15,205 bases of DNA from positions 1 through 15,205 of the forward strand of contig CALGIY010000069.1 of NCBI GenBank assembly GCA_937914965.1, read 5' to 3'. Shown here in pieces: positions 4,202-15,205 of the stretch (positions are counted from its first letter, which is position 1; every line of letters starts with the position of its first letter). This DNA comes from an uncultured Thermoanaerobacteraceae bacterium (GTDB taxonomy: Bacteria > Bacillota > DSM-12270 > Thermacetogeniales > Thermacetogeniaceae). The translations under genes and the position numbers were made by a program. Under the pieces are notes generated by a model. It was given only the letters and a program-made list of their open reading frames with translations. It was not told the DNA's origin and searched no databases.

Positions 4202-4657
4202 GTGAGTATCGAAGAGCGTCTGGCAGAACTGGCAATCAATCTACCGCAAGCACCAAAGCCTGTTGCAGCATATGTACCAGTTGTTCGGAGTGGGAATTTA
4301 CTCTATATATCTGGCCAACTGCCCCTGCTTGATGGGGAATTGGTGCACAAAGGCAAATTAGGCAGAGAGCTTTCACTGGAACAGGGCTGTGAGGCTGCAA
4401 GGGCAGCTGCTCTCAACTGTCTGGCCATTATCAAGCAGGAGTTAGGGAGCCTGGACAAGGTGAAAAGGATTGTCAAGGTTTTTGGAGTTGTCGCCTGTGA
4501 CCCCACTTTCTATGATCAGCCGAAAGTGATCAATGGGGCATCTGAACTGCTGGTGGAGGTGTTCGGCGACAAAGGTCGACACGCACGCCTGGCCGCGGGC
4601 GTCTGTTCACTCCCTCTCGACTCTCCGGTCGAAGTGGAAATGATCGTTGAATTTTGA
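4202..4657 (+). CDS. RidA/YjgF/YER057c/UK114-family protein (enamine/imine deaminase-like)
   Basis: The protein has 151 residues and a single RidA domain. It carries the longer N-terminus of the YjgH-like subgroup (LPQAPKPVAAYVPVVRSGNLLYISGQLP, residues 14-41). RidA proteins hydrolyse reactive enamines/imines such as 2-aminoacrylate and form trimers. The active-site arginine of RidA corresponds to Arg129 here, in HARLAAGV. The start is chosen at GTG 4202 because AGGAG at 4189-4193 sits 8 bases upstream; the farther GTG 4193 overlaps that site. The gene stands alone, and a short repeat begins 2 bases after its stop. Placed between an amine reductase/transporter locus and flagellar genes, its role is uncertain; not every member of this family is a deaminase. 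Confidence 0.88.
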   Translation: MSIEERLAELAINLPQAPKPVAAYVPVVRSGNLLYISGQLPLLDGELVHKGKLGRELSLEQGCEAARAAALNCLAIIKQELGSLDKVKRIVKVFGVVACDPTFYDQPKVINGASELLVEVFGDKGRHARLAAGVCSLPLDSPVEVEMIVEF

Positions 4658-4658
4658 C

Positions 4659-4710
4659 GGTACCTGGTTTGCTTTATTGCTTTATTGTCAAAAGGACCGT
4701 CCCTGTGACA
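4659..4710 (+). repeat. Dispersed repeat copy A (short, internally deleted)
   Basis: This copy starts 2 bases after the ridA stop. It joins the two ends of the longer copy B directly: the left block GTACCTGGTTTGCTTTATT (27 bases identical between 4660-4686 and 5450-5476), then a 25-base palindrome at 4686-4710 (TGTCA, core GGACCGTCC, TGACA) nearly identical to 5637-5661. About 160 internal bases of copy B are missing. Confidence 0.85.
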
Positions 4711-5019
4711 CTTTCAACCTCTTTCTAACTTGGGTGTAATAATCTGAAAGGGGTTGTTTGTTTTATACTAGGGAAAATGACAAGATTATGTAAAAAAACA
4801 GAGATTGCGTTATAGCTTATATGAATATCCTGTTATATATGATGAACCATTTGGCAAATAAGCAGCATGATTTAAGCCAGGCATTTCCTTTTGGCACTTT
4901 CTTTCTACTAGGTGAAAAATGGGGGTATAGAGATAAAAGTATTTACCGATATAGCTTAGGGAACCTTTAGAAATAATTTTTAATTTATTATCCAACAAGA
5001 TTAATAGGAGTGACTGCGG
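4711..5019. other. Gene-free interval upstream of yvyF
   Basis: Beyond the short repeat at its left, this AT-rich stretch holds no supported gene. The minus-strand ORF at 4810-5097 overlaps yvyF and has no family resemblance. Its one interesting element is the sigma-D-like promoter at 4926-4952. The rest shows nothing I can name. Confidence 0.5.
4926..4952 (+). promoter_or_regulatory. Candidate sigma-D (flagellar sigma-28) promoter for yvyF
   Basis: TATA at 4926-4929, a 15-base spacer, then ACCGATAT at 4945-4952. The Bacillus sigma-D consensus is TAAA-N15-GCCGATAT, so each box differs at one base and the spacing is exact. It lies 67 bases upstream of the flagellar gene yvyF, whose B. subtilis counterpart precedes flgM. 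Short motifs arise by chance, so this is a candidate. Confidence 0.6.
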
Positions 5020-5430
5020 ATGAGCTTGAGAAACTGCCCCGAGTGTGGTCGACTTTTTGAGTGCACACTGCGGAATCTTTGTCCAGACTGTATTCAAAAA
5101 GAGGACGAGGATTTTCAGAAAATCAAACAGTTTTTAAGAGAGAATCAAGGTGGCAGCATTACCGAAATCAGCGAAAAAACGGGAGTTTCAGAGCGGAGGA
5201 TATTGAGCTTTTTAAAAGAGGGGAGACTGGTCATTACCAAAGGGGACGATTCTACAGCATTACTGAAGTGCATGCGCTGTGGGAAACCCATTTCCAGAGG
5301 CTGCTATTGTAAGGAGTGCTGCCTCTCTTTAAATAAATTATTGAACGATTCCAGCCAAAGAACAAGAAACCAAACATCCCAGGAAGCAAAAGTGGGACCG
5401 GGGAGCTTTACAAACCATTTTCAGAAATAG
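5020..5430 (+). CDS. yvyF: YvyF-like flagellar operon protein (zinc-ribbon plus HTH)
   Basis: This 136-residue protein has an N-terminal treble-clef-like cysteine set (CPECG at 6-10, then CPDC at 21-24). A central helix-turn-helix-like segment follows (SITEISEKTGVSERRILSFLKEGRL, residues 46-70). A second cluster, CMRCG at 84-88 and CYCKECC at 95-101, probably binds another metal. This order matches the YvyF / TIGR03826 flagellar-region family, which in Bacillus sits in the comF-yvyF-flgM region and is implicated in flagellar gene control; the molecular role is not settled. AGGAG at 5006-5010 lies 9 bases before the ATG. A candidate sigma-D promoter is upstream. FlgM, FlgN and FlgK, usual neighbours, are absent; a long repeat copy follows 19 bases after the stop, so it is separated from fliN. 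Confidence 0.83.
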   Translation: MSLRNCPECGRLFECTLRNLCPDCIQKEDEDFQKIKQFLRENQGGSITEISEKTGVSERRILSFLKEGRLVITKGDDSTALLKCMRCGKPISRGCYCKECCLSLNKLLNDSSQRTRNQTSQEAKVGPGSFTNHFQK

Positions 5431-5449
5431 TCACATATAACATATAACA

Positions 5450-5661
5450 GTACCTGGTTTGCTTTATTGCTTTATTTTTGGCGCGATTCCCGTCTGCTTG
5501 TTCCCATCTTTTGATAACGATGGACAGCAGAACTGTTCCGTGTACAGAGTACCTCTTACTACGATTTGCCCCCTATCTCTACGTTGGTTTAACATGACAG
5601 CAGAGCTATCCCTGTGATCACACCGATCAGTTAGGTTGTCAAAAGGACCGTCCTCGTGACA
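5450..5661 (+). repeat. Dispersed repeat copy B (long, about 212 bases)
   Basis: This is the most complete copy. It begins GTACCTGGTTTGCTTTATT at 5450 and ends with the 25-base palindrome at 5637-5661. Internal blocks match copy C in reverse complement (GTCTGCTTG, ATCTTTTG, TGGACA-CAGAAC) and copy D (TAACTG, GTGATC, CAGGGATAG, TCTGCTGTC, TGTTAA). It contains three related palindromic units: 5521-5546, 5595-5620 and 5637-5661. There is no credible ORF inside; the minus ORF at 5464-5760 resembles no family I know. Confidence 0.87.
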
Positions 5662-5679
5662 TTCCCGTGACAATTCTCC

Positions 5680-5708
5680 TTGACATAAGCGGGATAAAAT
5701 ATTAACAT
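5680..5708 (+). promoter_or_regulatory. Candidate sigma-A promoter upstream of fliN
   Basis: TTGACA at 5680-5685 is a perfect -35 box. A 17-base spacer leads to TAACAT at 5703-5708, which matches TATAAT at four of six positions. The 5' leader would be about 145 bases long and contain the hairpin at 5801-5832. Confidence 0.45.
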
Positions 5709-5800
5709 AATTGGCAAAGATCCCATACATATTAACGGCAAAAATAATGTGCAAAACCATATTATGGTATCTAAATGAATAATCAGCTTGAAAGAGAAAA

Positions 5801-5832
5801 ATTTTCCGGAAACGTTCCGGGAGATTTTTTTA
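5801..5832 (+). terminator. Terminator-like hairpin in the fliN leader (possible attenuator)
   Basis: An 11-bp stem pairs 5801-5811 (ATTTTCCGGAA) with 5815-5825 (TTCCGGGAGAT), with two G-T wobbles and a 3-base ACG loop; the inner 6 bp are GC-rich. It runs into TTTTTT at 5825-5830 and on into ATTTTATT. It sits only 9 bases before the fliN ribosome binding site. It could either end upstream transcription or attenuate the flagellar operon. Confidence 0.75.
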
Positions 5833-5857
5833 TTTTATTGAGAAGGGAGTTTGTCCA

Positions 5858-6304
5858 TTGGATAATCGTGATGATCAACATTTATCACCGGAAGAAATCG
5901 ATTTACTGGTTAATGGGTTGGCACCTGACCAATCAGCTGATCAGGTGTCAGGTATTGACGATCAAAATGCCGAGAAGATTACAGCTCAACCGGCACAATT
6001 CCCTCCCTTTGAGCAAAATGATGAGGTTAAACAAATAGAGAGAAGTAAACTGGAATTACTATATGATGTTCCCCTCCAATTTACTGTGGAATTAGGGAGA
6101 ACCGAGAAAACTCTCAAAGAAATCCTCGACTTGGGGCCTGGGGCGATTATTGAGTTAGAAAAGTCGGCGGGGGAGCCGCTGGGTATTTTGGTAAATGGGA
6201 AACTGGTTGCTAAGGGAGAAGTAATTGTCATCGATGAAAATTATGGGATCAGAATCAAGGGAATTCTAAACGCGGAAGAGAGACTGAACAACATCAACAG
6301 CTGA
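5858..6304 (+). CDS. fliN: Flagellar motor switch protein FliN (FliN/FliY type, with FliM-like N-terminal peptide)
   Basis: This 148-residue cytoplasmic protein is part of the C-ring that controls rotation direction. Residues about 65-140 form the SpoA/FliN domain (LLYDVPLQFTVELGRTEKTL, then ILVNGKLVAKGEVIVID). The N-terminus begins LSPEEIDLLVNGL (residues 9-21), which resembles the EIDALL peptide with which FliM and FliY bind phospho-CheY or CheC proteins; a plain FliN normally lacks it. The CheC-like middle domain of full FliY is missing, replaced by a low-complexity linker (22-60), so this is a short hybrid form. Start is TTG 5858, with AGAAGGGAG at 5841-5849 eight bases before. It heads the fliN-flhF-flhG-fliF-fliG run, with a 48-base gap to flhF. 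Confidence 0.9.
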   Translation: MDNRDDQHLSPEEIDLLVNGLAPDQSADQVSGIDDQNAEKITAQPAQFPPFEQNDEVKQIERSKLELLYDVPLQFTVELGRTEKTLKEILDLGPGAIIELEKSAGEPLGILVNGKLVAKGEVIVIDENYGIRIKGILNAEERLNNINS

Positions 6305-6352
6305 GGTTAGAGAATATTTTATGCCTTAATGAAATTAGGGATGGTGAAGATA

Positions 6353-7489
6353 ATGAAGGTCAAGTGCTTCTATGGGGACAACCTTCCGGATGCCCTGATT
6401 AAAGTAAAGGCTGAACTGGGCAGTGATGCCGTCATCGTTAAAATAAATAAACAGCGTAAAGGGGGTCTTTTAGGGTTTTTCAAACCTCCTGTGGTGGAAG
6501 TGATTGCGGCTGTTGACGATAAGCAGCACCGATATCTAGCAAGTGATAAACCCGACTTTAGACCAGAACAGATTTTGAAAGAGGATTCTGTGTCTAGTCA
6601 GATCACAGAACTCAAAAGTCTGATCGAAGAGCAGATCTCCTTAAAACAGCCGCAAAATCAGGTTTATCCGAACTGCTTTAAAAACTTATTTGAAAATTTA
6701 TTAGCAAACAATGTTCATGAAAAGTTGGCCAGAGAAATTATTGATCGAGCCCTGCATGAAGTAAAGCAGCCGCTCTGGGATGATCCGGCGGCAGTAAAAG
6801 AGGTAGTGCTGGGCATTATATCTCAATATGTAAGTAAGTTTCAAAGAGAGCCCGCCGGGGAGAGGGGTCGAATCGCATTAATTGGACCGACTGGGGTCGG
6901 GAAGACAACCACCATTGCCAAGTTGGCTTCTATTTTTTCTGTTTTAGACGAGAAAAAGGTGGCCTTAATTACAATCGATACATTTCGAATCGCTGCTGTG
7001 GATCAGTTAAAAACCTATGCGGATATTATCTCCATTCCGATGGAGGTGGCACATACCCCCAGGGAATTAGGGCTTCTATTAGAAAAGCATGAAGATAAGG
7101 AAATGGTGTTGATCGATACTGCAGGGAGGAGCCCTTATAACAAACTGGAGATTGCAAAAACCAAGGGCTTTTTAGATGCCTGCCCGGGGGTGGAAGTATA
7201 TCTTGTGCTTAGTGCTGCCACAAATCAAAAGGACATGGTGGAAACCCTAAATGGGTACAGCCACTTTCCGATCACAAACGTAATTTTTACGAAACTGGAC
7301 GAGACGCGGAACTATGGGAGTGTACTAAATATTATGAACGAATATAAACAGGGTGTAGCCTATATCACTACAGGCCAAAATGTCCCCAATGATATCGAAG
7401 TTCCAGCCCCAGAGAAAATTGCCAACTTAATTCTGCAGGGGAGCGATAATTTTGAAAGACCAAGCGGAAAATCTGCGTTCAATGGTTAG
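6353..7489 (+). CDS. flhF: Flagellar biosynthesis GTPase FlhF (SRP-type)
   Basis: FlhF is a signal-recognition-particle-like GTPase that helps place flagella and recruit early basal-body parts at the membrane. The protein has 378 residues from ATG 6353, which gives the normal MKVKCFYGDNLPDAL N-terminus; upstream ATGs at 6329 and 6341 would add residues without family precedent. An N-terminal B domain and linker (1-110) are followed by the N domain and the G domain. The G domain has the P-loop GPTGVGKTT (178-186), FRIAAVDQLKTYA (211-223), DTAGR (255-259) and TKLD (313-316). It overlaps the next gene, flhG, by 38 bases, indicating translational coupling; FlhG is its GTPase-activating partner. 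Confidence 0.96.
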   Translation: MKVKCFYGDNLPDALIKVKAELGSDAVIVKINKQRKGGLLGFFKPPVVEVIAAVDDKQHRYLASDKPDFRPEQILKEDSVSSQITELKSLIEEQISLKQPQNQVYPNCFKNLFENLLANNVHEKLAREIIDRALHEVKQPLWDDPAAVKEVVLGIISQYVSKFQREPAGERGRIALIGPTGVGKTTTIAKLASIFSVLDEKKVALITIDTFRIAAVDQLKTYADIISIPMEVAHTPRELGLLLEKHEDKEMVLIDTAGRSPYNKLEIAKTKGFLDACPGVEVYLVLSAATNQKDMVETLNGYSHFPITNVIFTKLDETRNYGSVLNIMNEYKQGVAYITTGQNVPNDIEVPAPEKIANLILQGSDNFERPSGKSAFNG

Positions 7490-8336
7490 GGAGCTAGAAA
7501 CCAAATTTCGGGCACAGTTATCGGAGTTTTCGCCTGGGCGCTGCCGCGTTATTGCTGTTACGAGCGGCAAAGGGGGGGTAGGCAAAACCAGCCTGGCACT
7601 GGGGCTGGCGATCACCCTAGCCAAGGCAAACTATCGCGTGGTGCTGCTCGATGGGGATATGGGTATGGCCAATATCGATGTTGTATTGGGGTTATATACA
7701 AAATATGATCTTTCCCATGTAGTAAAGGGAGAGAAAGGGCTGCAGGAGATTATTTTAAAGGGGCCTGCAGGGATGAAAATTATTCCTGGTGGCTCTGGGG
7801 TTGAAGAATTGGCCAATATAGATTCCTCGACTTTAAACAGATTATTTAAAGAGATCACGCTGCTCGACCAGGAGACTGATTATCTATTTATCGATACTGG
7901 GGCCGGAATTTCAAAGCAGGTAATGCTTTTCCTGCAAGCTGCTGAAGAAATCCTTCTGGTTGCAACGCCTGAACCCACTTCTCTGACCGATGCCTATGGT
8001 TTAGTCAAGGTTTTTCACCGGCACTGCGGGAAGGCAAAGATAAAGGTGATCATCAACATGGCAAAAAATAAACAAGAGGGCGCTGCTGCTGCACAGAGAT
8101 TAAAAAGGGCGGCCCAATCGTTCTTGGGTGTCAATTTGGAAATACTCGGTTGTGTACACTACGATCCAGCGATTTCAAACGCCATAAAAAGGCATCTGCC
8201 CTATGTACTGGCCTCTCCATCCGCGCAAGCTTCAGTGGATACGATCAAAATAGCCTCAGTACTGGGAGAGGTGCCTGTGAAGCCCCCATCAGGGGTGAAA
8301 GTGTTCTTAAATAATCTTGTAAATCTGTTTACATAG
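7452..8336 (+). CDS. flhG: Flagellar number/placement ATPase FlhG (MinD-like, also FleN/YlxH)
   Basis: FlhG is a MinD-type ATPase that activates the GTPase of FlhF and limits flagellar number or pattern. The protein has 294 residues. The N-terminus MKDQAENLR contains the DQAxxLR helix known to stimulate FlhF, which supports the TTG start at 7452; AGGGGAG at 7437-7443 is 8 bases upstream. The deviant Walker A motif KGGVGKTS is at 40-47, followed by a conserved switch region (LLDGDMGMANIDVVLGL). The C-terminus VKVFLNNLVNLFT looks like the amphipathic membrane-targeting helix of MinD/FlhG. It overlaps flhF and is 35 bases before fliF. Confidence 0.95.
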   Translation: MKDQAENLRSMVRELETKFRAQLSEFSPGRCRVIAVTSGKGGVGKTSLALGLAITLAKANYRVVLLDGDMGMANIDVVLGLYTKYDLSHVVKGEKGLQEIILKGPAGMKIIPGGSGVEELANIDSSTLNRLFKEITLLDQETDYLFIDTGAGISKQVMLFLQAAEEILLVATPEPTSLTDAYGLVKVFHRHCGKAKIKVIINMAKNKQEGAAAAQRLKRAAQSFLGVNLEILGCVHYDPAISNAIKRHLPYVLASPSAQASVDTIKIASVLGEVPVKPPSGVKVFLNNLVNLFT

Positions 8337-8371
8337 TAAAGCGAGAACAAGGACGGGACGAAGGAGCAATT

Positions 8372-9916
8372 ATGATGAGTGTGAATAATGCTAAAGCAGG
8401 AATCAGAAAATACCTGGGTTTTGCCTTGGATTTCTTTGGTGGGCTCGATAAAAAAAAGAAAATTTTATTTATCTCTGGAGCAATCATCTGTTTGGTAATG
8501 ATTATTGTTCTGATTGTGTTTACTGCACAGCCCCGCTTTGTTCCTCTCTATACTGATATTGACACCCAGGATGCAGCTGCCATTACCCAGTATTTAAAGG
8601 ATAAAAAGATTCCCTTTGAGTTAAGTGATGAGGGGAGCACGATCCTTGTTCCCGAGCCGCAAAAATATCAAACTCGGCTTGATCTAGCCAATGAAAACTT
8701 GCCTAAAGGGAATGTCGTTGGATTTGAGTCATTTGATAAGCTTCGTTTCGGTGAAACAGAAAGCACGCAGAAGGTAAGATTGACTGCAGCTCTGCAGGGT
8801 GAACTGGAAAGGACGATCAGCAAGATTGCAGGGGTTAACGATGTTCGTGTTCATATTGTAAGACCCGAACAGTCCCTCTTTGTAGAAGATAAAAATGAGG
8901 CTACCTCCTCTGTATTCCTCGAATTAAAGCCTGGGTATGACCTGCAGCCTGCCCAGGTACGCGGCATTACCCGCCTGGTAGCAAGTGGGGTTGAAGGCCT
9001 TAAACCTGAAAATGTGACTGTTATCGACTCTGAAGGGAATGTGCTCTCCGATAATATCGATGATGCCAATCAAACAAATGGGAAACTCACTACAAATCAA
9101 ATGGAGTTTAAGCTCGATTATGAAAAGCAGCTGGATCGCTCTCTCCAAACCATGCTGGAGCGTGTGGTGGGATCGGGGAAAGCCGTTGTCCGCTCCAGTG
9201 TAGTCTTTGACTTTGACCAGGTGGAGATCCATCAGGAAGACTACGGGGACAAGCAGGTTAAAAGCAGTCATACCACTGACGAAAGCTCAACCGGTGCTTC
9301 AACCGGTCAGGGGCAGCCGGGGACTGGGGCTAATATTCCAAATACTTACCAGCAGGTTGACGGCCAGGATGGTACACAGCAGCAGAGAACTGAAAAAATA
9401 ACCGATTATGAAATAGATAAGGAAACTACGCACCGTGTGGTGGCACCAGGCCAGATCAAACAGCTTGCCGTTTCTGTCCTCTTGGGGGAGGAGATCGGTC
9501 TTCAAAAACAGCAGATGATTGCAGATATGGTCGCCTCGGCAGCCGGAATTCGTCCGGAGAGTGAAGACCGGGTGACAGTTACATGCCTGCCATTTAACTC
9601 TGGAGAGGGGCAAACAGAGAAGGGAATGGGTAGTGTTTGGAATCGTAATCAGTTAATAATAATTGTTGGTATACTCCTGGCACTGGTGGTTGCCTTACTG
9701 CTCTTCTGGCTGCTGCGGAAAAACAAAAGGGAGACGAAGCAAGGCGAACAGGAAGTACTAGTCCAGGATTTACTGGCTTCGAAACAGCAGGAGGTCATGA
9801 TGCCTGCTCCAGAGGACCAGGAAAAGATACAAATGCTCGAGCAGCTGCGCAAGCTTGCCAAAGACAACTCAAAGGAAACAGTCGAAGTACTCAGGTCCTG
9901 GCTTTCTAATGATTAG
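8372..9916 (+). CDS. fliF: Flagellar MS-ring protein FliF
   Basis: FliF forms the membrane ring on which the rotor and export gate assemble. This 514-residue protein has two membrane spans, about residues 31-52 and 428-448, with a large periplasm/wall-side region between them. That region has the ring-building motifs, including QGELERTISKIAGVNDVRVH at 142-161, and a low-complexity hinge rich in Ser/Thr/Gly/Gln (298-340). The C-terminal cytosolic end (KLAKDNSKETVEVLRSWLSND) is the FliG-binding segment, matching the next gene. AAGGAG at 8361-8366 is 5 bases before the ATG; ATG 8375 is an equally possible start. The gap to fliG is 12 bases. Confidence 0.97.
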   Translation: MMSVNNAKAGIRKYLGFALDFFGGLDKKKKILFISGAIICLVMIIVLIVFTAQPRFVPLYTDIDTQDAAAITQYLKDKKIPFELSDEGSTILVPEPQKYQTRLDLANENLPKGNVVGFESFDKLRFGETESTQKVRLTAALQGELERTISKIAGVNDVRVHIVRPEQSLFVEDKNEATSSVFLELKPGYDLQPAQVRGITRLVASGVEGLKPENVTVIDSEGNVLSDNIDDANQTNGKLTTNQMEFKLDYEKQLDRSLQTMLERVVGSGKAVVRSSVVFDFDQVEIHQEDYGDKQVKSSHTTDESSTGASTGQGQPGTGANIPNTYQQVDGQDGTQQQRTEKITDYEIDKETTHRVVAPGQIKQLAVSVLLGEEIGLQKQQMIADMVASAAGIRPESEDRVTVTCLPFNSGEGQTEKGMGSVWNRNQLIIIVGILLALVVALLLFWLLRKNKRETKQGEQEVLVQDLLASKQQEVMMPAPEDQEKIQMLEQLRKLAKDNSKETVEVLRSWLSND

Positions 9917-9928
9917 AGGTGAAGAAAA

Positions 9929-10930
9929 GTGAGTAAGTTGACAAGTAGACAGAAGGCAGCTGTCTTGCTACTTGCTCTGGGAGATAGCATCGCGATTCAA
10001 ATTGTGAAAGAGTTAGATGAGCATGAACTCGAACAAATTTGCCTGGAGATTGCTAACCTCGGGGAAATAACGCCGGAGATGATCCAGGATGTAACTGAGG
10101 AATTTTACGAGATGTGCCTGGCTAATAATTATATAAACCGCGGTGGGATCGACTATGCTCGCACACTGCTGGAGAAAGCCCTTGGCCCAACCAAAGCGGG
10201 TAATATCATCAATCATCTTGCAGCTTCATTAAGAGTGCGCCCTTTTGATTTTGTACGCAGGACAGATCCGGCGCAGCTGCTCAACTATATACAGAACGAA
10301 CACCCGCAAACCATTGCTCTGGTCCTGGCACACTTAGATCCCGACCAGTCCGCCGGGATTATTGCGGGGCTTGCTCCCGATAAGCAGGCAGAGGTCGCTT
10401 ACCGGATGGCGGTAATGGAAAGCACATCTCCAGATATTATCAGGGAAGTGGAGCATGTCCTGGAAAGAAAGCTGTCAACTGTTGTTCCCCGGGATTATAC
10501 CAGTGCCGGGGGAGTTAACTCGGTAGTTGAAATACTGAATAGGGTTGATCGTGCAACTGAAAAAATGATCCTGGAAACCCTGGAAACACAAAACCCGGAA
10601 CTGGCGGATCAAGTTAAAAAGCTCCTCTTTGTCTTTGAAGATATTGTACGGCTTGACGATAGGTACGTGCAGTTGATTTTGAGCGAGGTTGACCAGGACG
10701 ACCTGCCACTAGCATTGAAGGGTGCTACTGACAGTGTTTATAAAAAAATCGAAAACAATATGTCCAAACGGTCTGCTCAAAACCTGAAAGATGAGATAGA
10801 ATTCCTGGGACCAGTCAGAATTAGAGATGTGGAGGAATCCCAACAAAGGATCGTCTCTGTTATCCGCAGCTTGGAAGACCAGGGGCAGATCATTATCGCC
10901 AGGGGTGATGAAGACCAGATCATTTCATAG
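9929..10930 (+). CDS. fliG: Flagellar motor switch protein FliG
   Basis: FliG sits on FliF and transmits torque from the stator through its C-terminal charged helix. The 333 residues have the expected length. The N-domain starts LTSRQKAAVLLLALG (4-18); the middle domain has EHPQT (124-128, family EHPQR-like); the conserved GGV hinge is at 194-196, and LFVFEDI (233-239) corresponds to the MFxF motif. Start is GTG 9929, with a GAGGTGAAG site just before. The stop codon TAG (10928-10930) is also the first three bases of the palindrome that opens repeat copy C, so the repeat provides or abuts the gene end. Confidence 0.97.
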   Translation: MSKLTSRQKAAVLLLALGDSIAIQIVKELDEHELEQICLEIANLGEITPEMIQDVTEEFYEMCLANNYINRGGIDYARTLLEKALGPTKAGNIINHLAASLRVRPFDFVRRTDPAQLLNYIQNEHPQTIALVLAHLDPDQSAGIIAGLAPDKQAEVAYRMAVMESTSPDIIREVEHVLERKLSTVVPRDYTSAGGVNSVVEILNRVDRATEKMILETLETQNPELADQVKKLLFVFEDIVRLDDRYVQLILSEVDQDDLPLALKGATDSVYKKIENNMSKRSAQNLKDEIEFLGPVRIRDVEESQQRIVSVIRSLEDQGQIIIARGDEDQIIS

Positions 10931-10961
10931 ATCGCGGGGACGGTTCTCGTGATCTATTTTT
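10928..10961 (+). terminator. Possible intrinsic terminator after fliG, formed by repeat copy C
   Basis: In RNA of the + strand, 10928-10941 pairs with 10943-10956 with three G-U wobbles and no other mismatch, so about 11-12 bp can form after the centre opens as a loop. UUUUU follows at once. On the opposite strand the wobbles become A-C mismatches, so the + strand fold is the better one. Confidence 0.55.
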
Positions 10962-11124
10962 GAGCTATCGGGAGATCGCTGGGACTTGCCACTTCGCTAT
11001 AAGGGTTCATGCAAAAGGTGCGGTCAAGCATCACCTATGGGGGGGATATACGGTTCTGTTGTCCACCGATAACAAAAGATACGGGACAAGCAGACAAGTA
11101 AAGCAATAAGGCAAACCAGGTACC
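10928..11124 (-). repeat. Dispersed repeat copy C (long, about 197 bases, opposite orientation to B)
   Basis: Its left end is a palindrome at 10928-10956 (TAGATC ... GATCTA). Its right end CCAGGTACC at 11116-11124 and TAAAGCAATAAGGCAAACC match the left block of copies A and B in reverse complement. Internal blocks shared with B include CGGTTCTGTTGTCC and CAAAAGAT. It begins at the fliG stop and ends 16 bases before flgF, in front of the flgF ribosome site. A T5 run (10956-10960) follows the palindrome, which makes it terminator-like on the + strand. Confidence 0.85.
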
Positions 11125-11140
11125 GAAAGGGGGTGGGAAT

Positions 11141-11899
11141 ATGATTAGGGGTTTGTATACTGCAGCAGCGGGTATGATGGCCAGAGAGGCCGAGGTCGAT
11201 GTTATTTCGAATAATATGGCTAATGTAGATACTCCTGGCTACCGGAAGGACGAGGCCTTGGCGGCTTCATTTCCAAAGATGTTGTTGTCACGTATTGGTG
11301 AGGGGAGCGCAGTTATTGGAGGGCTGGGAACTGGCTGCGTCATTGACGGGGTGGCCACTTCTTTTGAAGGGGGTACGGTGCGTCAGACCGGTAACCCTTT
11401 TGATGTAACCCTGAATGGCAATGTGTTTTTTACAGTAAGAAATGAAAATGGAGAGCTCTTCTATACCAGAAACGGTAGGTTTATCTTGGATCAAAACAGG
11501 ATGTTGGTGACCGATACAGGGAATGCGGTGCTCGGGGAGATCAATGGAGAGTCTATGAAGATCTTTGTTCCCGGCGGTAAACTGGGTGTTGACGGAGATG
11601 GTACTTTGAATGGCGCTGTCGATGCCAATGGCCGGATTGTAACACGGCTTTACCTGAGGGCACGACCTACAGCTGCTGCATGGGAGAAGAGAGGCGATAC
11701 CCTCTTTCAGGGCGCATCTCAAACTCCAGTGGGGTTCATCAAAGTAGAACAAGGTGCCAGTGAAGGTTCCAATGTGAATCCGGTTGAAGAAATGGTCAAA
11801 CTGATTGCTGCCATGCGAGCCTATGAAGCTAATTCCAAAGTAATTCAAATTACAGATGGGACTTTGGATAAGTTGGTTAACAGTGTTGGTAATGCTTGA
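11141..11899 (+). CDS. flgF: Flagellar rod protein FlgF/FlhO
   Basis: This 252-residue rod/hook-family protein is exported by the flagellar type III system and forms part of the proximal or distal rod. The N-terminal D0 helix carries DVISNNMANVDTPGYRKD at 20-37. The C-terminus has the matching coiled segment (NPVEEMVKLIAAMRAYEANSKVIQ). The start MIRGLYTAAAGM is typical of FlgF/FlhO, and it is paired with a second rod gene (flgG/flhP), as FlhO-FlhP are in Bacillus. GGGGGTGGG just upstream serves as ribosome site. No signal peptide is seen, as expected. The gap to flgG is 91 bases and contains a hairpin at 11934-11958. Confidence 0.88.
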   Translation: MIRGLYTAAAGMMAREAEVDVISNNMANVDTPGYRKDEALAASFPKMLLSRIGEGSAVIGGLGTGCVIDGVATSFEGGTVRQTGNPFDVTLNGNVFFTVRNENGELFYTRNGRFILDQNRMLVTDTGNAVLGEINGESMKIFVPGGKLGVDGDGTLNGAVDANGRIVTRLYLRARPTAAAWEKRGDTLFQGASQTPVGFIKVEQGASEGSNVNPVEEMVKLIAAMRAYEANSKVIQITDGTLDKLVNSVGNA

Positions 11900-11933
11900 G
11901 CAGAGGCTGGACCCTTTTAGGGAGGCCTTTTAC

Positions 11934-11958
11934 GTGCGCTGATCGATCGAAGCGCCAC
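11934..11958. other. Hairpin between flgF and flgG
   Basis: GTG-CGCT at 11934-11940 can pair with AGCG-C-CAC at 11951-11958, with one bulged C and a GATCGATCGA loop. It lies 35 bases after the flgF stop. Without a T-run it is not a clear terminator; it may affect mRNA stability or just be chance. Confidence 0.35.
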
Positions 11959-11990
11959 TTAAAATCAGAGATAAAGGAGGCCTGACAAAT

Positions 11991-12794
11991 ATGCTGTGTT
12001 CTCTTTATACAGCGGCATCTGGCTTGGCGGCACAGCAGTTCAATATCGATACCATCGCCAACAACCTGGCCAATGTCAATACAACAGGCTACAAAAAGGT
12101 AAGACCCGAGTTCCAGGATCTACTCTACTTATCATTACAAGAGCCTGTCTTACAGCAGGAAAATCAAGGTGCTGGTGCTGGTACCCCACTTGGTTTATAT
12201 GTGGGGCTTGGTGCAAGGCCCTCTGGTTCACAAACTATAATGCGCCAGGGTAATTTACAGAAAACCGAAAATCCGCTGGATGTTGCCCTGTCTGGTTCTG
12301 GTTTTTTTGCAGTAAGTCAGGAGCGGGATGGGAACAACAGGTTTTATACCAGGGATGGCAGTTTTAAGCATGATGCCAGCGGAGACATTGTAACAAGTGA
12401 TGGTTGTTATGTTTTGAGTGATAACGGGAATACAATTAATATCCCTACAGGTGCTAAAGAGATTAGCATAGCAAGAGATGGCACGATAACATTCACTAAC
12501 TCAGGTGATGATGACTTTCAAGAGGCTGGCAAATTAGGTGTTGTGCAGTTTTCCAATCCTGTTGGCCTGGAAAGAGCGGGGCACAACCTCTACCAAGTCA
12601 CAGAGGCATCGGGCAACCCGCAGGTGAATACAGCTGACAGCACAGTTGAGCAGTATTACCTTGAGTCATCTAATATCCAGGTTGCTGACGAAATAATTAA
12701 TTTAATAACAGCCCAGCGGGCTTATGAATTAAATTCTAAGGCGGTTCAGGCATCTGATGAAATGCTTGGTATCGCCAATAATCTGCGCAGATAA
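11991..12794 (+). CDS. flgG: Flagellar distal rod protein FlgG/FlhP
   Basis: FlgG builds the distal rod. This 267-residue protein has FNIDTIANNLANVNTTGYKK (17-36) and the FlgG-specific continuation VRPEFQDLLYLSLQEP. It has a core with NGS-type repeats (QKTENPLDVALSGSGFFAV) and the C-terminal helix (EIINLITAQRAYELNSKAVQASDEM). The usual start MxRALWTAATGM is changed to MLCSLYTAASGL, with an unusual Cys3. AAAGGAGG at 11973-11980 is 10 bases before the ATG, the strongest ribosome site in the window. It sits beside flgF; downstream is a repeat-rich gap before the flgB operon. Confidence 0.93.
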   Translation: MLCSLYTAASGLAAQQFNIDTIANNLANVNTTGYKKVRPEFQDLLYLSLQEPVLQQENQGAGAGTPLGLYVGLGARPSGSQTIMRQGNLQKTENPLDVALSGSGFFAVSQERDGNNRFYTRDGSFKHDASGDIVTSDGCYVLSDNGNTINIPTGAKEISIARDGTITFTNSGDDDFQEAGKLGVVQFSNPVGLERAGHNLYQVTEASGNPQVNTADSTVEQYYLESSNIQVADEIINLITAQRAYELNSKAVQASDEMLGIANNLRR

Positions 12795-12865
12795 GTTGGA
12801 AGCAAGAAGTCGGATGTCGGAAAAGATCGCGGAGATGGGAGCGACCGAGCTGGGTCGTGAAACAT

Positions 12866-12955
12866 AGTAGATCAGGGGGACGCTTCACTTGATCTACTCT
12901 TGGTCTCGGGGTACTTCGGACCCTGTAATAAGGGCAGTTCCTGCATGTTTCCGGC
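12866..12955 (-). repeat. Dispersed repeat copy E (diverged)
   Basis: Its palindrome at 12866-12898 (AGTAGATCA ... TGATCTACT, 9-bp perfect arms) aligns with copy C's palindrome (TAGATC, GGGGACG core, GATCTA). Past it, ACTTCGGACCC-GTAATAAGGG and TGCATG resemble the ACTTCG-CTATAAGGG and TTCATGC of copy C. The CCAGGTAC end was not found, so the right limit is approximate. Confidence 0.6.
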
Positions 12956-13039
12956 GTCTGACATCCTCCTCCGACATCATTTATGTGGCCTATTTTGGCC
13001 CATTTTCCCCATTCATATAGGACCAACATCCCAAATTGA

Positions 13040-13069
13040 TTGACAATCGCCAATTATATCGATTATAAT
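13040..13069 (+). promoter_or_regulatory. Sigma-A promoter for the HTH gene and flgB-flgC-fliE
   Basis: TTGACA (13040-13045) and TATAAT (13064-13069) are both perfect consensus boxes with an 18-base spacer. Transcription should begin near 13076. This places the GTG at 13078 at the very start of the RNA without a ribosome site, and so supports the later start at 13144. Confidence 0.85.
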
Positions 13070-13143
13070 CTCCCTTAGTGGTTATTTCTACAATTATCCA
13101 GAAAATTAGACGCTATATGTATTTAAGAAGGGGAGATTTCTGG

Positions 13144-13833
13144 TTGGCCAGGCCAAGAGCTGTGATCGACAAAGATGAATTTTTATTACTTTATAGGAAG
13201 GGTTTCTCCGATCAGGTAATTGCGGAGCATTTTTGTGTTCATCGTTCAACGATAGCACGCAAGCGCCGGCAGATGTCACTGCCCCCGATCAGAAAGCGTG
13301 GGGAACGCGGCCCAGGGACAGTTCAAAAAGATATGCCATATTACGCAGAAATTTTTCGCCTCTTAAAACATGTAGGGAAATATATCAGAGAAGAAACAAG
13401 AAGGGTCCGCTGTGAAGCCGCAGCCCAGGGGAATAAGGAGGTCCAGGAGCGCCTGTACCTGCTCTCATGGCTAGCAACTGGGGTCGACCCTGCTCCGGTG
13501 CCACATCCTGTACCAGGGAAGTATGTACAAGATGCTCTGCGACCAAAGTCTGAAAGAGTCAGACACCTTCTTAACCTAGAATATCTTGCCGATAGGGCGG
13601 GACTGGCAGGTGTCCCCGGTCCCTCGATCATCAACCTGGCCCGGGTCTTTAAAACAGCAGATGAAAAGACCAAAAGCGAACTGGTTAGACAGGCTATTGC
13701 AGAAGCAGGTTATGTGGGTGTCCATGAAACTGTAGGGCATGTTCTGGAGAACGGGTTCGCTGGCTACGACAACTGGGTAGAGTTGTGGGATAGACAACGT
13801 GATGTGGTGCTGCAGTGGGTTCCTGGCACATGA
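13144..13833 (+). CDS. Unrecognised HTH DNA-binding protein of the flagellar locus
   Basis: I do not recognise this family. The protein has 229 residues. Residues 11-45 (DEFLLLYRKGFSDQVIAEHF, then VHRSTIARKRRQ) read as a helix-turn-helix with the look of a resolvase or sigma-like domain. The tail (after about 60) is charged and mostly helical, with no membrane span. Start is set at TTG 13144 because AAGGGGAG at 13128-13135 lies 8 bases upstream; the GTG at 13078 lies next to the expected transcription start and has no ribosome site, and ATG 13117 also lacks one. It shares the promoter at 13040-13069 and is followed 91 bases later by flgB-flgC-fliE. A regulator of this flagellar operon is a plausible guess, not shown. 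Confidence 0.75.
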   Translation: MARPRAVIDKDEFLLLYRKGFSDQVIAEHFCVHRSTIARKRRQMSLPPIRKRGERGPGTVQKDMPYYAEIFRLLKHVGKYIREETRRVRCEAAAQGNKEVQERLYLLSWLATGVDPAPVPHPVPGKYVQDALRPKSERVRHLLNLEYLADRAGLAGVPGPSIINLARVFKTADEKTKSELVRQAIAEAGYVGVHETVGHVLENGFAGYDNWVELWDRQRDVVLQWVPGT

Positions 13834-13924
13834 AGAAATTACACCGAACTGTGAGTCAGACCGGTTGGTCGGAAGTGATTGACTATGGAGCTGCTTCAGA
13901 TATCTATGATAAGGGGGGAGTATC
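13834..13924. other. Short spacer between HTH gene and flgB
   Basis: Nothing is recognised here except the flgB ribosome site (AAGGGGGGAG, 13911-13920). No terminator is seen, so flgB is probably read from the same promoter as the HTH gene. Confidence 0.5.
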
Positions 13925-14296
13925 TTGCAGATAGCCAATCCAGCAGCAGAAGTTATGGAGAGAGCATTGGACATTAACTGGCTTCGCCAGCAGTTAATTG
14001 CCAACAATATAGCCAATGTTGATACACCTAACTATAAGAGAGCGGATGTTGACTTTAAAAGTTCTCTTATAAAAGCTCTGAACAATCATTCAGATTCCCG
14101 ACTGGCTGCCAAAGAGGTGGAGCCAGATTTCGTTGACTCGGAAGATTTGATACTCAGCAATGATGGGAACAACGTGGATATTGAAAAGGAAATGTCCCAA
14201 CAGGCTGTCAATGTATTACAATACGCTCTTTTGACAAGGTTGGTATCAGATCAACTCGGTATGCTGAGGACAGCGATTACGGAAGGGAGACGGTGA
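13925..14296 (+). CDS. flgB: Flagellar proximal rod protein FlgB
   Basis: FlgB is one of the proximal rod subunits exported by the flagellar apparatus. The 123-residue protein has the rod-family motif LIANNIANVDTPNYKRADVD (24-43) and a C-terminal helix (NVDIEKEMSQQAVNVLQYAL). Length is within the usual range of about 120-135. The start is TTG 13925 after AAGGGGGGAG. The stop is four bases before flgC, so translation is likely coupled. Confidence 0.93.
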   Translation: MQIANPAAEVMERALDINWLRQQLIANNIANVDTPNYKRADVDFKSSLIKALNNHSDSRLAAKEVEPDFVDSEDLILSNDGNNVDIEKEMSQQAVNVLQYALLTRLVSDQLGMLRTAITEGRR

Positions 14297-14300
14297 TTAG

Positions 14301-14753
14301 ATGGGACTGTTTACTGGGATTGAAATAAGCAGCAGCGCTCTGACCGCCCAGAGGCTGCGGATGGATATCATCTCGAACAACATTGCCAATGAAGGAACCA
14401 CCAGGTCCGGGCAAGTTGACCCTAATGGGAGACCGGTACCCTACCGGAGGGAGTATCCCGTTTTTGAAGCAGGAGTACCTTTTACCACCTATTTAAAAGG
14501 ATTGGGAACCAAGGATGCCAATCCTGGAGTCAAGGTTAAGGCTATTCTAGAAGACAACTCCCCCTTCCCACTGGTCTATAAACCGAACCATCCAGATGCA
14601 GACCTGGAAGGGTATGTAAAAATGCCGAATGTTAATGTGATGCAGGAGATGGTGGACCTAATCGATGCCAGCCGGGCCTATGAGGCTAGTATTTCAGCTT
14701 TGAATGCCTCAAAGGAAATGAGCATCAGGGCGATCGAGATCGGGAAAAAATAA
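14301..14753 (+). CDS. flgC: Flagellar proximal rod protein FlgC
   Basis: This 150-residue rod protein has the N-terminal motif LRMDIISNNIANEGTTRSGQ (19-38) and the C-terminal rod helix (VMQEMVDLIDASRAYEASIS). The GQVDPNGRPVPYRREYPVFE segment is typical of FlgC. GGTGA at 14291-14295 serves as ribosome site five bases before the ATG, inside the end of flgB. Confidence 0.94.
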   Translation: MGLFTGIEISSSALTAQRLRMDIISNNIANEGTTRSGQVDPNGRPVPYRREYPVFEAGVPFTTYLKGLGTKDANPGVKVKAILEDNSPFPLVYKPNHPDADLEGYVKMPNVNVMQEMVDLIDASRAYEASISALNASKEMSIRAIEIGKK

Positions 14754-14777
14754 ATATTTTTATGGAGATGTTTTGAG

Positions 14778-15074
14778 ATGTTGATCCAGGATCTAGGGCC
14801 AGTACTGTTTCCGAAACAAGATACTGAAAGCGCTGGTGCAGTTCAAAAGGGAACTGAATCCTTTCAGGATATACTTCTCATGGCTGTCAACAAAGTAGAT
14901 ACCCTGCAAAAGGATGCGGAGATGAAAGCATGTGAAGTGGCCATGGGAGATGCAGGCAGCTTTCATCAGGCTGTTGTTGCTTCAGAAAAGTCAATGCTGG
15001 CTTTGCAGCTTACTGTTCAAGTGCAAAATAAAGTCGTAGAGGCCTATAACGAAGTGATGCGCATGCAGATTTAG
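14778..15074 (+). CDS. fliE: Flagellar hook-basal body complex protein FliE
   Basis: FliE joins the MS-ring to the rod. The protein has 98 residues, typical for the family. It has a helical C-terminus (SFHQAVVASEKSMLALQLTV and QNKVVEAYNEVMRMQI), a hallmark of FliE. It follows flgC by 24 bases. In most Firmicutes fliF-fliG come next; here a repeat copy starts 10 bases after the stop and fliF-fliG are 6 kb upstream. ATG 14778 is used, with a modest GGAG at 14764-14767. Confidence 0.93.
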   Translation: MLIQDLGPVLFPKQDTESAGAVQKGTESFQDILLMAVNKVDTLQKDAEMKACEVAMGDAGSFHQAVVASEKSMLALQLTVQVQNKVVEAYNEVMRMQI

Positions 15075-15084
15075 TGGTTGCTGG

Positions 15085-15205
15085 TTAGTGTCGCGGGGAC
15101 GATCCTTTTGACAAACTAACTGGCCGCGTGATCGCAGGGATAGTTCTGCTGTCGTGTTAACCCTACGGAGAGAAGTAGGAGATAATCGGAACTAAAGCAA
15201 TAAAG
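15085..15205 (-). repeat. Dispersed repeat copy D (runs off the window)
   Basis: It begins with TTAG plus the palindrome TGTCG ... TGACA at 15089-15113, flanked by CTAA at 15116-15119. It then matches the reverse complement of copy B block by block (AACTAACTG, GTGATC, CAGGGATAG, TCTGCTGTC, TGTTAA). It ends CTAAAGCAATAAAG at the window edge; the conserved CCAGGTAC end is expected just outside. Compared with B it lacks an internal stretch of roughly 75 bases. Confidence 0.82.

Follow-up and report, generated by a model that had tools for sequence, protein, structure and literature searches.

Post-stop repeats in a Thermacetogeniaceae draft genome: probable composites of terminal inverted repeats from two transposase clades

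The DNA analysed here, referred to as the window, is a stretch of 15,205 nt that corresponds to contig C69, end to end, of the draft genome of an uncultured Thermacetogeniaceae bacterium (2,002,603 bases in 411 contigs, 92% complete). It carries a ridA-like gene together with fliG, flgF, flgG and fliE, and it contains five copies (A to E) of a repeated element, which begin 0–71 bases past stop codons and are found in both orientations. A sequence-only reading had described these copies as a single five-copy family of structured repeats of roughly 200 bases, of the non-autonomous kind that Y1 or other transposases can move. We find instead two families, here called block A and block B; copy D consists of a hairpin only, and A and B stand anywhere from 13 to 180 nt apart.

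The five window copies are unequal. Block B, a hairpin, is present in all five, and block A is present in copies A, B, C and, truncated, E. In copy A, which has no interior, block A (4659..4684, plus strand) lies one base past the TGA of the ridA-like gene and is directly adjoined by a single B hairpin of arm type S1 (TGTCA..TGACA; 4685..4710, minus) with an exact core. Copies B, C and E are long and contain additional degenerate hairpins. Copy B starts with block A (5449..5474, plus), 19 bases past the stop of the open reading frame (ORF) 5020-5430, continues through a degenerate S2-like hairpin that aligns with the composite L113 (5521..5545, minus) and a second degenerate hairpin with 84–87% identity to copy E (5594..5620, minus), and ends in a terminal S1 hairpin with one core mismatch (5636..5661, minus). 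Copy C reads from a terminal hairpin of arm type S3 (AGATC..GATCT; 10927..10957, plus), whose left arm includes the fliG stop codon, through an interior (10958..11098, plus) with a degenerate hairpin near 11045-11068, to a block A (11099..11124, minus) whose outer edge abuts sequence upstream of flgF that is shared with the related genome G006. Copy D has no block A and consists of a single S3-type hairpin (12866..12898, plus), whose core is the variant GGGACGCTTC. In copy E a terminal S1 hairpin with one core mismatch (15089..15113, plus), itself 14 bases past the fliE stop, is followed by a degenerate hairpin homologous to 5594-5620 (15128..15155, plus) and by the start of a block A (15193..15205, minus) that is cut by the end of the window and of contig C69. 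The hairpin of copy D is also flanked by an inverted dispersed repeat (TCGGATGTCGGA / TCCGACATC) at 12797-12827 and about 12955-12980, which has 90–97% matches in genomes G006 and G019 and lies near A-class copies in relatives.

The shared end block proposed in the sequence-only reading is real: matches at 4661-4684, 5451-5474 and 11099-11122 have 0, 0 and 1 mismatches, against 0 in 200 dinucleotide shuffles of the window, and the truncated fourth adds to them. All five proposed palindromes were likewise found in place (4685-4710, 5636-5661, 10927-10957, 12866-12898 and 15089-15113), with the core exact in those at 4685 and 10927, one mismatch in those at 5636 and 15089, and two in that at 12866. 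When folded as single-stranded DNA, the hairpins at 10927 (z -5.2) and 12866 (z -6.5) are far better than their shuffles, but the other three, at 4685, 5636 and 15089 (z -1.4, -1.6 and -0.2), are unremarkable by energy alone.

Both blocks are dispersed over the genome, as had been suggested. Block A, with the consensus GGTACC[TA]GGTTTGCTTTATTG[CT][TC]TTA, does not fold as a hairpin and occurs in 55 places (36 exact, 12 with one mismatch, 7 with three), and GGGACGGTTCTNNTG of block B by itself occurs in 46; reversed-pattern controls gave 0 for each. An exact scan for GGTACCWGGTTTGCTTTATTG in the genome contig collection, in which our genome is possibly not included, gave no match. The conservation of block A spans GGTACC to about TTA in the position profile and is preceded by a looser TAAC (60–77% per base), which may reflect a target preference. 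The neighbourhood counts for our own genome given here and below come from 68 contigs (494 kb) selected for holding A or B. In these, 3 of 56 A copies are within called genes, and A copies lie a median of 29 nt from the nearest stop (n=39), compared with a median of 95 nt at randomly chosen intergenic positions (n=1027), which bears out the intergenic, post-stop placement noticed in the window. One stretch of contig C367 (L048, 12090-12475), upstream of a radA-like gene, holds four block A matches in 400 bases, arranged in two related stretches.

Block B is a hairpin with an 11-base core, GGGACGG[TC][TC]CT, and variable self-complementary arms. The 91 exact-core copies fall into arm types S2 (34), S1 (25), S3 (9), S4 (6) and S5 (6), with 11 others. 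Counted outward from the core, arm positions 3–8 pair in 77, 87, 91, 85, 89 and 67% of these copies, using several pair types, after which pairing falls to 35%. Among 123 looser B copies, the arms score 5.2 with their own partners versus 2.8 with shuffled ones. Together these values indicate that the tip of the hairpin is constant and that the arms vary yet remain complementary.

The sole gene with a PF01797 domain found in the genome lies outside the window (C367:8117-9013) and encodes a RAYT-like (REP-associated tyrosine transposase, where REP is repetitive extragenic palindrome) protein of 298 aa. Block A is found twice upstream of it in one orientation and once downstream, inverted and overlapping the stop codon, with an inverted-repeat score of 22 versus a shuffled maximum of 11.5. 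From this inverted bracketing we read block A as the terminal inverted repeat (TIR) of the one TIRYT gene found in this genome. The protein scores 51.5 bits for Y1_Tnp (cut-off 23), 72.1 for NF047646 (below the cut-off of 80), just under the cut-off for REP_Tyr_transpos, and 29.4 bits (E 8e-7) for Bac_DnaA_C, slightly under the cut-off of 31.5. Protein searches of the genome, at its 92% completeness, found no second TIRYT gene, and the closest homologs in 60 relatives have up to 42% identity. In the tree the gene clusters with L084, L085 and L167, the last on a long branch, at a support of 93; CGGGGTCAGGTATCAACTTT brackets L084, L085 has GGGGTCAGGCTTG upstream, and homologs of about 40% identity are bracketed by GGGGTCAGGCTTG-type repeats resembling block A in form. 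Our block A reads GGTACC[TA]G where the best homologs read GGGGTCAG, to be compared with the GGGGWSAS motif, which is not universal among TIRs. Around the best 80 of 518 named homologs found with A-class proteins as queries, GGGGTCAGG has 77 inward and 3 outward occurrences and is present on both sides in 23. GGGGTCAGGCTTGCATTATTGCA, near block A in form, stands on both sides of the gene in Pelotomaculum sp. UBA3103 and in one metagenome-assembled genome of Bacillota. The orthologous site in G018 (L169, G018:C35, 1106-1286) retains just the HTH-coding (helix-turn-helix) 3′ end, with 63% identity and no block A, and in other genomes of the family that carry the neighbouring HAD gene no RAYT was seen in the adjacent stretch inspected.

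Block B is tied to other genes of the same kind. We surveyed TIRs at 56 of the 64 listed RAYT matches (our own and 55 from relatives) and found GGGAC[AG]G pointing inward 102 times (47 upstream, 55 downstream) and outward 10 times (4 and 6), with the core on both sides in 29 of the 56 loci. For these 29 genes the arms at the two ends match in 20 cases, versus 85 of 812 cross pairs, and the own-stem score is 5.12 versus at most 3.06 across 200 partner shuffles. Arms of type S2 bracket the intact RAYT L097 (G006), and its sister gene, the broken RAYT L149 (G018), is bracketed by arms of type S4; brackets of types S3 and S5 were not seen at any of the 56 loci. On a tree of 48 of the loci (proteins below 215 aa excluded; 35 rows with a usable TIR label, 13 with none), the TIR class requires 7 changes, versus at least 14 in 200 shuffles. 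Block B thus belongs to a hairpin TIR class that is shown to bracket other TIRYT genes in relatives, and the B copies of our genome look like orphans, as no B-type transposase gene was found there. The suspected link to Y1/RAYT transposases therefore holds for the end block at home and for GGGACG-type palindromes in relatives. There is no proof for the further proposal that the resident transposase recognizes the palindrome; the gene here is flanked by block A, not by the palindrome, and the palindrome less likely belongs to it than to other, absent transposases.

The post-stop position and the compensatory arms of the hairpins would also suit a regulatory role that has preserved these sequences in 3′ untranslated regions, as structured RNA elements or as terminators. 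We consider this very improbable: the copies are found in both orientations, a transposase gene is bracketed by block A, SECIS_4 at 2039-2076 was the only Rfam match with E up to 1, and 0 listed terminator-like sites in 4400-15205 coincide with a B hairpin. A group-specific RNA family was rejected on the same Rfam result. Some copies may have acquired a role for the host once inserted. The SECIS_4 element follows the TGA that closes ORF 986-2038, which is why this gene is probably a selenoprotein gene with readthrough to 2296. Elsewhere in the window a perfect TTGACA-18-TATAAT is found at 13040-13069, ahead of an HTH_23-like gene (13078-13833).

What connects the two blocks is their relative arrangement. 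B cores with at most one mismatch, which include some chance matches in coding DNA, lie within 300 nt of the 56 A copies 22 times downstream and inverted, 2 times downstream in the same orientation, 5 times upstream in the same orientation and 0 times upstream and inverted. With the exact core and a limit of 250 nt, 15 of 15 A–B pairs are downstream and inverted (binomial 9e-10 at one quarter, pairs taken as independent); contig C118 was left out of this count for its identical inverted halves, and past 250 nt the exact-core orientations on our own contigs are mixed. The C118 arrangement (L054), two identical halves inverted around the repeat, is probably an assembly artefact. By comparison, 6 of 24 B–B pairs within 300 nt are convergent. 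The interiors of the units are related as well: window copies B and E score 120 against each other and the composites L076, L113 and L115 score 92–122, versus a shuffled maximum of 46, and the similarity stops at the terminal hairpin both between window copies B and E and between L113 and L115. As interiors are shared, some composites were probably copied whole. Runs of the heptamer GACCAAC/GACTAAC occur inside L076, L113 and L115. An origin of the interior from a transposase gene is unsupported; protein searches give one RAYT locus only in the genome.

That A and B are two unrelated families merely accumulating in the same short post-gene gaps strikes us as improbable, as such accumulation fails to yield one side with one orientation, or shared interiors. 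It does agree with the preference of both blocks for intergenic post-stop DNA, with the lack of an exact-core B partner at most A copies, and with the fliE site of G006, which holds an A-like part only. A single MITE-like (miniature inverted-repeat transposable element) family in which the resident TIRYT serves two dissimilar ends, A and B, would account for the fixed relative orientation, the shared interiors and the single TIRYT found, and it has a precedent in Escherichia coli TnpA-REP, which, in the available part of PMC8266576, acts on y, z1 and z2 REPs. We nevertheless regard it as unlikely, since A, which does not fold, differs from B in sequence and form, B belongs to a different TIRYT clade in relatives and is often alone, and block A is paired with B arms of types S1 to S4.

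We favor, with a probability of roughly 0.65, the reading that the window repeats are non-autonomous composites, similar to bacterial interspersed mosaic elements (BIMEs), of TIRs from two clades of TIRYT-type Y1 transposases. In the preferred unit, A>...<B, one system would contribute its left end and another its right end, the two facing each other. Such units could arise by in-trans ligation of ends processed by two TIRYTs, or by B arrays growing beside A, and an assembled unit could then be copied to further post-stop sites with its interior retained, in keeping with the shared interiors. Cleavage would take place on single-stranded DNA; the tip of the hairpin would be the signal shared by these enzymes, and the arms would be what is specific to each transposase. 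The genome has the A system; the B systems were presumably lost, or are unassembled.

Several observations weigh against this reading. Exact-core B is found within 250 nt of just 14 of the 54 A copies, so the majority stand alone or next to a decayed partner, and the A–B spacing is not constant. Our own block A, with GGTACC, departs from GGGGTC; GGGGTCAGG is missing from both sides of 57 of the 80 named homologs; the B core is absent upstream in 20 and downstream in 20 of the 56 RAYT loci; and the two S1 hairpins that flank RAYT L100 (G022) point the same way and are not inverted. The assembly, at 92% completeness, may have missed a B-type gene. A-class repeats (CWGGYTTGCTTTATTG) number 70 across 8 of the 20 other genomes searched; genera g7 and g8 account for nearly all of the 70, and the control gave 0 (the pairing table has 72 rows, two copies on one G019 contig being entered twice). 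With GGGACGG within 300 nt, 14 of them are down-inverted, 6 up-same, 3 down-same and 0 up-inverted; this is a weaker bias at wider spacing, and 12 of the 14 down-inverted cases are in g7 and 2 elsewhere. The alignable relative for empty-site comparison is G006 alone, from another genus. Its homology resumes immediately outside block A, upstream of flgF, and it offers no clean empty site, with fliG-flgF broken by a contig end and the sequence downstream of flgG unrelated. Downstream of fliE it holds an A-like remnant and no B, which suits stepwise assembly equally with whole-unit copying. Movement and function of the composites are something we infer and have not observed.

More tentatively, and with doubts of our own, we suggest that related Y1 transposases share the GGGACGG tip and use their own arm pair as a code that separates neighbouring systems, and that heterotypic mobile units regularly form by the joining of ends from two systems, an outcome that in-trans ligation would produce. 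If this is right, the poorly understood TIRYT branch of domesticated transposases gains a defined substrate in the form of a hairpin whose tip is constant and whose arms can be exchanged; the joining of two systems' ends in one orientation bears on how REP-like mosaics form; and the match of arms to genes is a possible route for assigning orphan repeats to lost transposases.

Among known systems, E. coli BIMEs combine y with z1 or z2 REPs (PMC8266576, PMC2817692, as far as the available text goes), and in-trans ligation between RAYTs on different REPs was proposed in 2010 (PMC2817692, available text). Our repeats resemble REPINs and BIMEs, in what is accessible of these sources, as short repeats that form inverted pairs and mosaics after genes. 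In E. coli, according to the same excerpts, a single enzyme serves y, z1 and z2, which are GTAG REPs related to one another, whereas A and B are unlike and tied to different clades; the GTAG tag is absent from the block A position profile, and no conserved GTAG stands beside the listed B cores. Unlike in classical REPs and REPINs, inverted pairs of the same REP are not the main unit (22 A>...<B versus 6 convergent B–B, with A–A pairs uncounted). Literature searches on GGGACGGTTCT, or on GGGGTCAGG with transposase and repeat, returned only papers seemingly unrelated by title, and no title or abstract opening in the searched literature describes heterotypic pairs like A–B, an absence that is not proof.

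The protein resembles TnpA-Y1 subclass 2.1, or RAYT group 1, in its Y1 core and C-terminal Bac_DnaA_C-like HTH (PMC6006769, accessible part). The accessible part of that survey reports no REP-like sequences near subclass 2.1 genes (Quentin, 2018), unlike the many homologs here, in one phylum, bracketed by hairpin repeats; hairpin TIRs beside subclass 2.1 genes would therefore extend the survey, if the HTH similarity just under the Pfam cut-off is taken to place our protein there. The closest likeness is to the TIRYT/TIRtron systems (Di Nocera, 2013; PMC3733652), which, in the portion available, have a RAYT-like Y1 gene between inverted repeats, one of them overlapping the 3′ end of the gene, moderate genomic repeat numbers, dimers, clusters and some self-complementary TIRs. 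GGGGWSAS is given there as the class motif of some TIRs, not all, and it fits GGGGTCAG and GGGGACAG, whereas our own block A (GGTACCAG) and block B (GGGGACGG) miss the strict form. The same portion describes neither a heterotypic A>...<B unit nor a hairpin with a constant core and variable arms, and it is these two, the heterotypic TIR pair and the constant-core, variable-arm hairpin, that appear to be new here.

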